From Promicromonospora panici (GTDB lineage Bacteria; Actinomycetota; Actinomycetes; Actinomycetales; Cellulomonadaceae): 64,000 nucleotides of DNA. This document shows positions 14,846-57,106 of the stretch, piece by piece. The stretch lies in assembly GCF_900608595.1 (NCBI RefSeq), contig NZ_UWYY01000009.1, positions 1-64,000 of the forward strand, given 5' to 3'. How positions within the stretch are numbered: the stretch's first letter is position 1; every line of letters starts with the position of its first letter. Under the pieces are notes generated by a model that searched no databases, had not been told where the DNA came from, and worked only from the letters and a program-made list of their open reading frames with translations. The position numbers and the translations under genes are program-made.

Positions 14846-14912
14846 TTGGTTGTGGGCGGGATCGTTGCGCCTAAAGCGGGCGCATAGTCGCAACGATCCC
14901 GCCCACAGCCAA
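14846..14912 (+). repeat. 67-bp palindromic repeat, copy 1 (family A)
   Basis: A 24-bp left arm beginning TTGGTTGTGGGCGGGATCGT pairs with a right arm ending CGATCCCGCCCACAGCCAA (one mismatch) around a 19-bp asymmetric loop CCTAAAGCGGGCGCATAGT. The loop gives the element an orientation. Three more copies of the same length are at 16028, 31725 and 49190. Confidence 0.9.
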
Positions 14913-16027: not shown

Positions 16028-16094
16028 TTGGTTGTGGGCGGGACCGTGGCGCCTAGAGCGGGCGCATAGTCGCAACGGTCACGCCCACAACCAA
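16028..16094 (+). repeat. 67-bp palindromic repeat, copy 2 (family A)
   Basis: Arms TTGGTTGTGGGCGGGACCGT and GGTCACGCCCACAACCAA with loop CCTAGAGCGGGCGCATAGT, same orientation as copy 1. It starts 5 bp after the stop of the chimeric gene and ends 5 bp before the stop of the convergent GH43 gene, so it may also act as a bidirectional terminator. Confidence 0.9.
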
Positions 16095-31724: not shown

Positions 31725-31791
31725 TTGGTTGTGGGCGCGACCGTTGCGACTACGCGTCCGTTTTAGACGCAACGGTCACCCTCACAACCAA
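31725..31791 (-). repeat. 67-bp palindromic repeat, copy 3 (family A, inverted)
   Basis: Arms TTGGTTGTGGGCGCGACCGT and GGTCACCCTCACAACCAA. The loop ACTACGCGTCCGTTTTAGA matches the reverse complement of the copy 1 loop at 15 of 19 positions, so the element is in opposite orientation. It lies between the convergent eis-like and nei genes. Confidence 0.9.
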
Positions 31792-31813: not shown

Positions 31814-32902
31814 TCAGGTCTGGCAGGTGTCGCACCAGAACAGGTTGCGGCCTGCCAGCTCCTTGATCAGCACCGGCGTCCCGCACACGCGGCACGGCAG
31901 ACCGTCCCGGTGGTAGACGTAGAACGCCTGGTCGGCGGGCACGGCGTCCGGCGCGCCGTCGGTGTTCTGCCGGGTCCGACGTCGCCCGTCGACATCGGGC
32001 CTGTGTTCACCTGAGCCCTGGTCAGGGTCCTGTTCTCGACGGACCGGGCGGTCCGCGGGCCGGGTCGTCACGATCGCGCCGTGCGCGGCGCCGTCGCGCA
32101 TGAGCGTCACCAGGTCGTCCCAGATGGCCCGGACCGCGGCGGCGGGGACGTCACGTCCCGGGCGCAGCGGGTCGACGCCGGCCCGGAACAGGGCCTCGGC
32201 GCGGTAGATGTTCCCGACCCCGGCGACGACAGCCTGGTCCATGAGCTGCTGCCCGATCGTCACCCGCGACCGGCCGACCGCCGCGACGAAGGCCTCGACG
32301 TCGCCGTCGTCCCGGATGGGGTCGGGGCCGAGGCGCGCCTGGACCGCCGTCTTCTCCTCGGCCGTGATCACCTCGCAGGCCGTGGGTCCGGTGAGGTCGG
32401 CGACGGCGTGGTCGCCGAGCAGGCGCACGCGTACCTGCCCGCGCGGCTCCGGCACGATCCACGTGTCAGACGTGGAGCTCACCAGGGTGACCTGTGGGTC
32501 TGACCCGTCCGACGCCGGCGGAGGCGGCGCCGTCGTCTCGCGCTCCCCGATCCGACGCCGGGGCGCGCCGATGGCATGCGCCACCTCGGGCGCGTCCGGG
32601 GCGCCCGCGAACGTCCACGCGCCGTACAGCCCGAGGTGCGTGCGCAGCCACAAGATGTCAGAGCCTGAGGTCACTCCGGTGACCCGAGCGTCTGACACGT
32701 CGGCGGGCGCCGAACGGCCGGCGGGGGCGAAGCCCAGGAACAGCTGCTTGCCCCAGGCCTCGCTCGCCACCAGACGCCGGCCGTCGAGCACGGCCGCGCC
32801 GTCGGCGAACCGTCCCTGGGGGCTGCTCACCCGCAGGATCTGGCCGGAGTACAACGAGGCGAACGTCCGCGCGAGGCGGTGGACGGTGTGACCCTCAGGC
32901 AC
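31814..32902 (-). CDS. nei: Endonuclease VIII/Fpg-family DNA glycosylase, Nei1-like, with insertions
   Basis: A 362-residue bifunctional DNA glycosylase/AP lyase for oxidised bases. The catalytic N-terminus is PEGHTVHRLA (Pro2, Glu3 after Met removal), with LRTHLGLYGAW, a helix-two-turn-helix LMDQAVVAGVGNIYRAEALF and a C-terminal zinc finger CRVCGTPVLIKELAGRNLFW followed by CDTCQT. It matches mycobacterial Nei1 (about 270 residues) but is some 90 longer. Two of the extra segments, residues 68-83 and 132-147, are encoded by copies of a 48-bp palindrome and read DVSDARVTGVTSGSDI and DGSDPQVTLVSSTSDT. A third, charged insertion is near residues 290-325. Start GTG 32902 overlaps the rpiB stop by 8 bp. 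Confidence 0.93.
   Translation of the reverse strand: MPEGHTVHRLARTFASLYSGQILRVSSPQGRFADGAAVLDGRRLVASEAWGKQLFLGFAPAGRSAPADVSDARVTGVTSGSDILWLRTHLGLYGAWTFAGAPDAPEVAHAIGAPRRRIGERETTAPPPPASDGSDPQVTLVSSTSDTWIVPEPRGQVRVRLLGDHAVADLTGPTACEVITAEEKTAVQARLGPDPIRDDGDVEAFVAAVGRSRVTIGQQLMDQAVVAGVGNIYRAEALFRAGVDPLRPGRDVPAAAVRAIWDDLVTLMRDGAAHGAIVTTRPADRPVRREQDPDQGSGEHRPDVDGRRRTRQNTDGAPDAVPADQAFYVYHRDGLPCRVCGTPVLIKELAGRNLFWCDTCQT
32461..32508. repeat. 48-bp palindromic repeat inside nei, copy C2 (family C)
   Basis: The 48-mer runs ACGTGTCAGACGTGGAGCTC to CTGTGGGTCTGACCCGT. It aligns without gaps to copy C3 (34 of 48 identical) and to the perfect palindrome at 47975-48022. In the nei frame it encodes DGSDPQVTLVSSTSDT. 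Confidence 0.85.
32653..32700. repeat. 48-bp palindromic repeat inside nei, copy C3 (family C)
   Basis: The 48-mer ends GACCCGAGCGTCTGACACGT and matches copy C1 at 36 of 48 positions. It is exactly 192 bp (64 codons) from C2, so the same frame is read; the peptide is DVSDARVTGVTSGSDI. Confidence 0.85.
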
Positions 32903-40732: not shown

Positions 40733-40745
40733 CCCCCGCTTCGCC

Positions 40746-40844
40746 GAGGTAGGACCCTGGCGAGGTAGAACTGTGGCAGCGCTGCGGTCCTACCTCGCCA
40801 GGCTCCTACCTCGCCACAGTTCTACTTCGCCACAGTTCTACTTC
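40746..40844. repeat. Six 16-bp units in opposed orientation (family D, site 3)
   Basis: Two forward units (40746-40777), a 3-bp gap, then four reverse units (40781-40844) with variants GAGGTAGGACCCTGGC, GAGGTAGAACTGTGGC and their complements. The opposed parts can fold on each other. The last unit overlaps the end of malQ and supplies its TAG stop. It lies between the convergent pepN and malQ genes. Confidence 0.9.
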
Positions 40845-47066: not shown

Positions 47067-47951
47067 TCAGCCGGCGATCTCGTCCAGCGCCGCGACGTCG
47101 TCGGAGGTGAGCCGGAGACCAGCGCCCGCGACGTTCTCGCGCAGATGCGCCGCCGACGAGGTGCCGGGGATCAGCAGGATGTTCGGCGACCGCTGCAGCA
47201 GCCAGGCCAGTGCGACGGACATCGGCGTCGCCTCCAAGCGGGTGGCCACTGCCGAGAGAGCGGCGGACTGGAGCGGGCTGAAGCCGCCGAGCGGGAAGAA
47301 CGGCACGTAGGCGATGCCGTCCGCCGCGAGCTTGTCGATGAGCTCGTCGTCGTGCCGGTGGGCGAGGTTGTACATGTTTTGCACGCAGACGATCGGTGCG
47401 ATCGCGCGCGCCTCGGCGACCTGTTCCGCCGTCGCGTTGCTCACGCCAAGGTGCCGGATCAGGCCTTGCTGCTGAAGCCCGGCGAGCGTCTCGAACGCTT
47501 CGGCGAGCGAACCCGGCTGGGGCCCCTGGGCGTTGCCGAGCCGGAGGTTCACGACGTCGAGCACCTCGACGCCCAGGCTGTCCAGGTTCTCGTGGACGGC
47601 ACGGTAGAGCGCCTCGGGCTCGCGGGCCGGGGGCCAGCCGCCCTGCTCGTCGCGGGTCGAGCCGACCTTGGTCGCGACGTGCAGAGCTTCGGGGTACGGG
47701 TGCAGCGCTTCGCGGATCAGCCGGTTGGTGACTCGCGGACCGTAGGCGTCGCTCGTGTCGATGTGGGTGATCCCGAGGTCGACGGCCTCGCGCAGTACGG
47801 CGAGTGCGCCGTCGGGGTCGGCGGGCGGGCCCATGACGCCGCGGCCGGCGAGCTGCATGGCCCCGTAGCCGAACCGGGTGACGGTCAGGTCGCCGAGGGT
47901 CCAGCTGCCGCCAGGAAGTGGCCCAGGGACTGTGGTGGAGGGCGTGCTCAT
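47067..47951 (-). CDS. Aldo/keto reductase
   Basis: A 294-residue NADPH-dependent TIM-barrel oxidoreductase. It shows VTRFGYGAMQLAGRGVMG, LREAVDLGITHIDTSDAYG (catalytic Asp and Tyr), ALHVATKVGSTRDEQGGW (catalytic Lys) and late IPGTSSAAHLRENV (NADPH phosphate). Substrate unknown; members reduce aldehydes and quinones. ATG 47951 has AAAGGA at proper spacing. It is divergent from the HxlR regulator gene, which probably controls it, with a 52-bp perfect palindrome in between. Confidence 0.93.
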   Translation of the reverse strand: MSTPSTTVPGPLPGGSWTLGDLTVTRFGYGAMQLAGRGVMGPPADPDGALAVLREAVDLGITHIDTSDAYGPRVTNRLIREALHPYPEALHVATKVGSTRDEQGGWPPAREPEALYRAVHENLDSLGVEVLDVVNLRLGNAQGPQPGSLAEAFETLAGLQQQGLIRHLGVSNATAEQVAEARAIAPIVCVQNMYNLAHRHDDELIDKLAADGIAYVPFFPLGGFSPLQSAALSAVATRLEATPMSVALAWLLQRSPNILLIPGTSSAAHLRENVAGAGLRLTSDDVAALDEIAG

Positions 47952-47972: not shown

Positions 47973-48024
47973 CGACGTGTCCGACACACAGGTCACTCAG
48001 GTGACCTGTGTGTCGGACACGTCG
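47973..48024. repeat. 48-bp palindromic repeat, copy C1 (family C), extended perfect palindrome
   Basis: A perfect 24-bp inverted repeat around TCAG; the left arm reads CGACGTGTCCGACACACAGG. The central 48 bp (47975-48022) are the intact form of the element that is also in nei. It stands in the 5' region of the aldo/keto reductase gene, 22 bp from its start, and lacks a role in the HxlR reading frame. Confidence 0.9.
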
Positions 48025-48151: not shown

Positions 48152-48616
48152 ATGCCGACGATGACGGCGGCCCAGAAGAGGGCGCATGCCAAGGCGGAGT
48201 ACGACGCGTTCCTGGCGGCCTGCCCGAGCCGCATCCTGCTCGACCGGATCTCGGACAAGTGGGTGACACTGACCGTGAGCGCGCTGGGCGGCGGCGGTTC
48301 GCCGAAGCCGGGCGGGGGCTATGGCGACGGGCCACGGCCGATGCGCTACTCGGAGCTGTCCCGCCGGCTGGCCGGCGTCAGCCAGAAGATGCTCACCCAG
48401 ACGCTGCGCTCCCTGGAACGCGACGGCCTCGTCACGCGCACGGCGACGCCGACGGTGCCCGTCACGGTCACCTATGAGCTGACCGACCTCGGCCTCTCGC
48501 TGCTCCAGCTCGTGCGCGGCATCAAGGGCTGGGCCGAGACCCACATGGACGACGTGCTCGCCCACCGCGCGAAGCACGACGCCGGGGCCTCGGACCAGGG
48601 GCCGCCTGAGCAGTAG
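48152..48616 (+). CDS. HxlR family transcriptional regulator
   Basis: A 154-residue winged-helix regulator. It shows CPSRILLDRISDKWVTLTVS (the Cys before the fold is redox-sensing in several HxlR proteins), then MRYSELSRRLAGVSQKMLTQ and TLRSLERDGLVTRTATPTVP. An insertion of Gly/Pro (GGGGSPKPGGGYGDGPR) in the loop is unusual. ATG 48152 has GAGGAGA upstream. It is divergent from the aldo/keto reductase and probably senses electrophiles or oxidants to induce it. Confidence 0.9.
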   Translation: MPTMTAAQKRAHAKAEYDAFLAACPSRILLDRISDKWVTLTVSALGGGGSPKPGGGYGDGPRPMRYSELSRRLAGVSQKMLTQTLRSLERDGLVTRTATPTVPVTVTYELTDLGLSLLQLVRGIKGWAETHMDDVLAHRAKHDAGASDQGPPEQ

Positions 48617-49189: not shown

Positions 49190-49256
49190 TTGGTTGTGAG
49201 CGCGATCGTTGCGCCTGAAACGGGCCCGTAGGCGCACAAATCACGCTCACAACAAA
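49190..49256 (+). repeat. 67-bp palindromic repeat, copy 4 (family A)
   Basis: Left arm TTGGTTGTGAGCGCGATCGT, loop CCTGAAACGGGCCCGTAGG, right arm ending AATCACGCTCACAACAAA. This copy is the most diverged. It ends 3 bp before the stop of the convergent GTPase gene. Confidence 0.85.
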
Positions 49257-55280: not shown

Positions 55281-55360
55281 TGCGGCATCTTGTCGGAGAT
55301 GTCACGTTACAGCAAGGAATGAATAAATTTCACCCTTTGCCCGCACCGCCGTCTGGATCG

Positions 55361-55419
55361 CTGAGTGCTGGATATTCGCCCCTCCAGTGCGGCCAGGAGG
55401 GCGAATATCCAGCGCTCAA
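55361..55419. repeat. 59-bp palindromic repeat, copy 3 (family B)
   Basis: Left arm CTGAGTGCTGGATATTCGCC and right arm GGCGAATATCCAGCGCTCAA: almost perfect complements, the best copy. It ends 4 bp before the ettA stop (minus strand) and may terminate it. Confidence 0.9.
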
Positions 55420-55423
55420 CGGG

Positions 55424-57106
<1,683 letters not shown>

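Follow-up and report, generated by a model that had tools for sequence, protein, structure and literature searches.

A short palindromic repeat of Promicromonospora that lies mostly behind genes and is read in frame within a minority of them

Introduction

Mobile palindromes that are read in frame within genes are best known from Rickettsia, and counterparts of these Rickettsia palindromic elements (RPEs) have been reported in Wolbachia. In the passages of two reports that describe them, RPEs are dispersed palindromes, some of which lie in frame within unrelated conserved genes, where they encode a recurrent peptide (PMC10969869, PMC2229807); their length is given as 105-146 bp (PMC2229807) or about 150 bp (PMC10969869). 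According to the same passages, nearly half of the first RPEs of R. conorii were found in ORFs (PMC10969869), and the guanylate kinase of this species, which carries an RPE insert, is active with a changed substrate affinity (PMC2229807). A related case is Cod-2 of the actinobacterium Corynebacterium diphtheriae, a 32-bp repeat with 43 members and a predicted stem-loop, which is present in various coding sequences (CDSs) and which a 2008 report compared with RPEs; it is treated there as a genic repeat, read in several frames with a different peptide in each (PMC2267715).

Other short repeats are characterized by their position relative to genes. For instance, the GTAG and CGTC REPs of Di Nocera et al. 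(2013) adjoin gene 3′ ends, both where neighbouring ORFs are co-directional and where they converge; stop codons are often provided by those of the GTAG type, and some REPs are intragenic (PMC3733652). In the same paper, CGTC REPs have no dedicated transposase and are listed in five phyla, Actinobacteria not being among them, and REP-like families of M. tuberculosis are mentioned (PMC3733652). Additionally, some bacterial MITEs are described as fused in frame to genes (passage in PMC2229807).

Here, we analyse a palindromic element of about 52 bp from Promicromonospora, starting from a stretch of 64,000 nucleotides (positions 1-64000 of contig 9, hereafter “the window”) of a genome of 6.58 Mb in 56 contigs (genome G000), for which the named relatives closest by Nei are Promicromonospora species. 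Like RPEs, the element is dispersed, has many copies and, in a minority of them, is read in frame in unrelated genes, where it gives a recurrent peptide; compared by description, it differs from them in its length of ~52 bp, outside the range of 105-146 bp, and in that 17 of 82 copies are in CDSs. The original prediction for this DNA took it for an RPE-like coding palindrome, and the core of that reading holds, given the 82 copies, the genus-wide matches and the empty orthologues, but the family has proved to be mainly intergenic, by stop codons. The accompanying statement that no such description was known from this phylum has to be withdrawn, as Cod-2 had already been likened to RPEs (PMC2267715). 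The element is set apart from Cod-2, also by description, in having one frame and one peptide and in being mostly intergenic.

As REPs do, the element adjoins gene 3′ ends, is sometimes intragenic and sometimes gives a stop codon. By contrast, where CGTC REPs are described with an unpaired CGTC at one end, a stem of 8-9 bp and a tail that is mostly CCA (passage in PMC3733652), the Promicromonospora element has paired CGTC/GACG at both ends, a 24-bp stem and no conserved CCA, and related palindromes of two genomes of another genus (G045/G053) have CTCG at that end. REPs moved by RAYTs would go with a Y1 transposase in the genome, and this was found in 0 of 13 genomes. MITEs (e.g., ERIC and Correia) share with the element that they are short, non-autonomous inverted repeats; unlike them, it is palindromic nearly throughout, and neither a parent element in 77 stretches nor a target duplication at four sites was seen. 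In kind, the element belongs with RPEs and intragenic REPs, from which it differs in sequence and architecture (RPEs and Cod-2 being set apart by description). As far as the open-access literature searched shows, the novelties are the family as such, the use of one coding frame with one peptide, and the occurrence of filled and empty orthologues across the genus, together with the finding of identical copies at unlinked sites and of sister palindromes in other genera.

Three copies in the window

The gene nei (31814-32902, minus strand), which codes for an Fpg/Nei-family DNA glycosylase of 362 aa, carries two copies of the element. In a domain search, its product matched H2TH (E=2.2e-21) and, over its cut-off, zf-FPG_IleRS, with Fapy_DNA_glyco slightly below its cut-off and every NCBIfam match under its own. 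Site 1 (32651-32702, minus strand; residues ~67-83) gives the peptide ADVSDARVTGVTSGSDI, and site 2 (32459-32510, minus strand; residues ~131-147), a decayed copy, gives DGSDPQVTLVSSTSDT, the best boundaries being those of 52 bp in both cases. The third copy (47973-48024, with no strand assigned) is intergenic and an exact palindrome, its two 24-nt arms being 100% complementary around a 4-nt loop. These three are among the five window matches of the core pattern, of which 0.17 would be expected by chance.

The covariance model R1, of which all three copies are seed members, scores them at 64.6 bits (site 1), 60.5 bits (site 2) and 75.6 bits (47973-48024). The claim made from the letters of the window that the two nei stretches belong to the same repeat family as the intergenic palindrome is borne out. 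It was also correctly seen that the nei copies are 192 bp (64 codons) apart and in the same frame, where they give the peptides DVSDARVTGVTSGSDI and DGSDPQVTLVSSTSDT.

Family size and distribution

The majority consensus of the element is CGACGTGTCAGACGCNCAGGTCACCCGGGTGACCTGTGCGTCTGACACGTCG, and its core has the conserved ends TGTCAG...CTGACA. The seed of R1 comprised seven copies, the three of the window and four from elsewhere in the genome; the latter were picked from five places matched by a first, imperfect pattern, the fifth of which (L005) was discarded as not being an element. Run on the 6.58-Mb genome, the model gave at least 150 strand-matches in at least 80 distinct places, with best E-values per place from 1.8e-15 to 4.5e-5, scores that are independent for 73 places and not for the seed copies, those of the window included. 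With two more copies in fetched flanks, the genome has at least 82 copies, so the further copies whose existence the original prediction had left to a whole-genome search are indeed present. The 82 copies that were classified exclude six further places given by a half-element pattern, which, allowing at most one mismatch, had 110 matches in G000 and 377 in the congener G006, against 0 in both for the same pattern written backwards.

At E 1e-4, R1 matched all 13 Promicromonospora genomes, with from 6 to at least 149 strand-matches per genome, the match counts per genome being lower bounds, as up to 150 candidates were scored per genome in small runs and 26 or 14 in large ones. The weakest of them was G008, with three divergent places and a best E of 2.9e-8. 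There were matches in 34 of 221 genomes of the family, the 13 of the genus included, and in 11 of 394 genomes of a class-wide sample, a count that includes the genome of the window. Beyond Promicromonospora, in three genera (G045/G053, G160 and G017; L301-L323), most of the matches inspected were what we call sister palindromes: repeats of other Cellulomonadaceae genera with TGTCAG...CTGACA-like ends and different but still paired interiors, often in pairs ~9-10 bp apart. The elements had no match in Rfam at the gathering score (10 sources searched), a 30-base element pattern had no exact match in IMG/VR, and a 78-base query had none in phage and plasmid collections at E 1e-5.

Some copies are near contig ends (G000:C51, 8593-8612 of 8616; G000:C14, 221872-221923 of 222470), and given these, perfect hairpins may break assemblies. 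The fetched DNA also holds a TPP riboswitch (L025, 1644-1748) and an Actino-pnp RNA (L029, 456-532), both ordinary and at least 1 kb from element copies. The window contains, additionally, a second palindromic family, consisting of TTGGTTGTGGGCGNGANCGTTGCGNCTA plus an inverted copy (14846-14912, 16028-16094 and 31725-31791, with a half-site at 49190-49213); it has 274 half-sites in the genome versus 0 control matches, and its window copies begin 5-17 bp after predicted stop codons. Two further inverted repeats of the window are located at 40745-40813 (27-nt arms, 93% complementary; CGAGGTAGGACCCTGGCGAGGTAGAAC) and at 55344-55436 (imperfect, with 38-nt arms at 79%), the latter overlapping a predicted gene end.

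Structure and covariation of the arms

Pairs were counted in the 54 of 82 copies that are 52 bp long without indels. In these, 87% of the arm cells are paired, and the arms differ among copies yet keep their complementarity, with some G-U pairs. Cells changed on both sides number 70, versus 31.7 in shuffles, a value that 0 of 500 shuffles reached; the covariation score is 0.186 versus 0.107 in shuffles (again reached by 0 of 500), and sliding the partner destroys the signal, leaving 0.076 at most. Changes on both sides affect 12 of the 24 pairs, which 18 of 500 shuffles equalled, and all these excesses are to be read with the proviso that related copies may exceed shuffles without selection. 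The best-paired columns are 6-12 and 19-24, with weaker pairing in the outer five and in 13-18; columns 6-12 and their partners are also among the most conserved.

As RNA, the 47973 copy has a minimum free energy of -49.9 kcal/mol (z -9.8), and the hairpin is mostly lost in nei site 2 (z -0.84). More generally, hairpins are weaker in coding copies, with a median of -28.0 kcal/mol versus -36.9 in the other copies (p=0.009).

Position relative to genes

By the calls of a home-made codon-score gene finder trained on the fetched DNA, on which all CDS assignments rest, the 82 copies in G000 comprise 59 intergenic ones, 6 that overlap the predicted start or end of a gene and 17 within a CDS, versus a coding fraction of 90% in the fetched DNA. 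The 65 non-CDS copies are divided into 42 between co-directional genes, 17 between convergent genes and 6 between divergent genes. Nearly all co-directional copies are closer to the upstream stop (40/42, p=4e-10), at a median of 9 bp from it when overlaps are scored 0, and 39 of the 42 are at most 25 bp from this stop or overlap it. All 17 convergent copies likewise are at most 25 bp from one stop or overlap it. Some copies supply the stop codon themselves, as a TGA formed with the first bases of the element. The perfect palindrome at 47973-48024 is the exception in the window, as it is between divergent genes and near a start: an apparent ATG (complement of 47949-47951; by eye) of a gene read leftwards begins ~21 bp downstream of it, and a gene start is predicted to its right, at 48152 (+).

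Similar figures were obtained in G006, where 23 of 24 co-directional copies are closer to the upstream stop, 20 of 24 are at most 25 bp from it or overlap it, and 14 of 16 convergent copies are at most 25 bp from a stop. In this sample, which was drawn from the first-listed exact half-elements on one contig and so favours young copies, 1 of 44 is in a CDS, a share that is understated because the nei place was left out. A position mostly just downstream of coding regions, which is a trait of REPs, is thus seen in both genomes.

Copies inside coding sequences

The 17 CDS copies are in 15 predicted genes and all share one phase, in which they encode peptides of the type DVSDxQVTxVTxxSDTS (for instance, DVSDPQVTRVTRASDTS, DVSDTQVTGVTSASGTS and DLSDLQVTGVTQASDTS); for L084, the phase (2, as in the other 16) was taken from the untrimmed match, as trimming cost 5 bases per end. 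This single phase is partly forced by ascertainment, since the consensus has TGA stops in the other phases. Nonetheless, it is open on 33 of 34 strands of gene copies versus 74 of 125 registrable strands elsewhere (p=7e-6).

With the insert, conserved enzymes are longer by ~16 residues. Hosts over NCBIfam cut-offs are dihydropteroate synthase (DHPS), uroporphyrinogen-III C-methyltransferase and CydC, and those under them are NagA-like, NasC-like, CynX-like, SenA-like and ThiO-like proteins. Pfam adds Mfd-like TRCF, PIG-L, PNT (PntA-like), GH3 and Helicase_C_3 proteins, and host L041 had no Pfam match. Four copies (L030, L041, L086 and L087) are ~40 nt or less from a predicted gene end.

Filled and empty orthologous sites

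Orthologues were compared for nei and 10 host genes in 6 to 10 relatives each, a set from which L030, L041, L086, L087 and the second L043 copy were left out. At nei site 1, the element is absent from G003 and G005 (LGFEGDLWLR), from G014, of another genus (LGFSGDLWLR), and from G008 (LGFGEGEPLWLR). G006 is filled at this site by LGFVPADVSDAQVPGVTCASDTLWLR, a copy better paired than that of the window, while in G001, G007, G010, G011 and G012 the loop is about as long but retains little or no resemblance to the element. Among the 17 orthologues of other genera, some have 5-7 residues at this point and others longer loops of unrelated sequence. Site 2 is a variable-length linker in every relative; related copies are found there in G006 and G009 and right-arm pieces in G010 and G011. 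In G006, the palindromes of sites 1 and 2 are both near-complete. Consequently, the proposal that Nei has extra segments exactly where the copies lie stands for site 1 within the genus (absent from G003, G005 and G008, and from G014), but not for site 2, where the linker varies in length everywhere. The C-terminal linker of Nei also varies. The third variable linker of the gene (32001-32060) contains a short palindrome-like stretch, CCTGAGCCCTGGTCAGGGTCCTG, apparently unrelated, by eye, to the 52-bp family.

The other hosts give a graded picture. In DHPS, the site is filled in G000 and in G006, a different insert occupies it in G005, and 7 of 9 relatives have the short form; the Helicase_C_3 protein is short in 5 of 6 relatives, and the NasC-like protein is empty in 2 of 9. 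Together with nei site 1, these three provide the relatives without the segment that the original prediction had looked for in orthologue alignments. The CobA-type protein is short in 2 of 10 relatives, the NagA-like protein is shorter in 8 of 9, with filler, the SenA-like protein is shorter at its first element copy in 6 of 8, and the Mfd-like protein is shorter in 9 of 10, by few residues. In L060, L078 and L084, linkers vary at the site and there is no clear empty state.

Remnants of the right arm are present in short alleles, as ACCTCTGACACATCC in the CobA gene of G005, as ACCTCTGACACGTGG in nei of G010 and also in NagA of G005, and match the expected outcome of an in-frame deletion within the palindrome. 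The genomes with a filled NagA, G000 and G006, are not adjacent on the genus tree, which was itself made from these segments and is weakly supported in places. As loop length varies in relatives that have no trace of the element, nei site 1 and several other sites appear to be generally insertion-tolerant. Another coding repeat, TCTCGACNAGCTCGACCA, read as VSTSSTS, is found in G005 at the same insertion-tolerant loops of the Mfd-like protein (L228) and DHPS (L237), and also in L219; a stretch resembling it by eye is present in nei of G004.

An AlphaFold2 model of Nei, computed from 36 sequences, has a mean pLDDT of 84.7, with 233 of 362 residues at 90 or more, and among PDB entries it most resembles E. 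coli endonuclease VIII (21% identity). Site 1 is placed between the strands E53-59 and E84-89 (block-mean pLDDT 69 and 53) and site 2 between E95-100 and E157-162 (53 and 67). The suggestion that the segments are tolerated as surface loops agrees with this model as regards low-confidence, flexible loops, in which both would lie; they would probably also be exposed to solvent.

Evidence of movement and the search for a mover

In G006, two pairs of sites have identical 52-mers, palindrome-breaking bases included, with unrelated flanks immediately outside them, and nine 42-bp cores are each common to 2 to 5 sites. Because the identity extends to the palindrome-breaking bases, particular copies must have been copied, rather than having converged on a palindrome, and their presence at unrelated sites shows that the element has moved recently. 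At the two cleanest gene sites (nei site 1 and the L026 protein), the net gain is 48 bp, not 52, other sites being blurred by linker indels.

Several candidates for the mover were considered. A RAYT was rejected, as Y1 transposase (Y1_Tnp, PF01797) had 0 matches among the 13 genus genomes at E 0.001, where 5 of 14 control genomes were positive. An autonomous element whose long terminal repeats each consist of a single arm was rejected as well, none being found in 77 stretches of G000, window included; in this fuzzy single-arm search, matches were chance-like or degraded by eye, and at 4 substitutions nearly all were chance-like. No larger element with TGTCAG...CTGACA ends was present in the 77 G000 stretches scanned, and no target-site duplication was visible by eye at four G006 sites with identical copies.

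Discussion

The element is dispersed and its arms covary, it was copied recently in at least one Promicromonospora genome, and its copies are mostly placed at gene 3′ ends, with a minority in frame in predicted genes. We consider it very probable that it is a short (~52 bp), non-autonomous mobile palindrome that is found mostly behind genes and provides conserved enzymes with new loop segments. Its hairpin or paired-end form would be copied by an enzyme acting in trans, and selection would remove most insertions in genes. Copies would persist behind stop codons, where a hairpin may be harmless or useful, and those in genes would persist if the loop they enter is exposed, their phase is the single open one and the number of bases they add is divisible by three. 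As palindromic DNA gives nearly the same hydrophilic peptide in either orientation, tolerance would be independent of orientation. Coding copies, which we infer to be neutral, would drift once fixed, through substitution and in-frame deletion, into ordinary-looking linkers.

Other explanations have to be weighed against this one. The repeat could be kept mainly for a useful hairpin behind genes, with roles in termination, mRNA 3′ end protection or insulation of convergent genes, the gene copies being by-products. Such a function agrees with the median of 9 bp to the upstream stop and the convergent placement, both repeated in G006, with a stable RNA hairpin (-49.9 kcal/mol in the 47973 copy) whose arms covary with some G-U pairs, and with the weaker hairpins of coding copies (-28.0 versus -36.9 kcal/mol, p=0.009). 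However, the same placement would result if selection removed insertions that damage promoters and reading frames, identical copies at unlinked sites indicate spread and not retention alone, and strand-matches range from 6 to at least 149 per congener; on balance, a repeat retained mainly for its hairpin seems rather unlikely. The element might also be a MITE, that is, a DNA transposon with an internal deletion, which a DDE transposase moves by recognizing the TGTCAG...CTGACA ends. We regard this as possible but doubtful: it would account for the conservation and pairing of columns 6-12 and their partners, for the same ends on palindromes with other interiors in three other genera and for the lack of a Y1 transposase in the 13 genomes of the genus, but not for a palindromy of the whole interior that exceeds the needs of end recognition, and the 77 G000 stretches contained no larger element with these ends, nor was a target duplication visible by eye at the four G006 sites.

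As regards nei in particular, the segments could have arisen by ordinary expansion of linkers and look like the repeat by chance, since in relatives the length of site 2 and of the C-terminal linker is not constant, the site-1 loop varies in other genera, and L060, L078 and L084 are without a clear empty state. Chance resemblance is nevertheless extremely improbable when both sites in nei of G006 hold near-complete palindromes, G003, G005, G008 and G014 are short at site 1, the same peptide recurs in 15 genes and 73 copies are outside the R1 seed. Finally, we would give little credence to a hairpin independent of any transposase, copied by host replication or repair, that prefers gene 3′ ends (perhaps termination sites), supplies both hairpins and loop segments and recurs in kind across Cellulomonadaceae, where the TGTCAG...CTGACA ends would be retained and the interior would vary freely while staying paired.

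If the element is, as we favour, a mobile palindrome, it would represent a simple route to new loops in conserved enzymes, because palindromic DNA, whichever strand is read, encodes a hydrophilic peptide that is almost unchanged. Rickettsia, from which such elements are best known, is obligate intracellular and hard to manipulate. Promicromonospora is a genus with strains in culture collections (ATCC, DSM), which makes it possible to test whether the insertions are neutral or change the enzymes that carry them, and what may move a palindrome without a RAYT.
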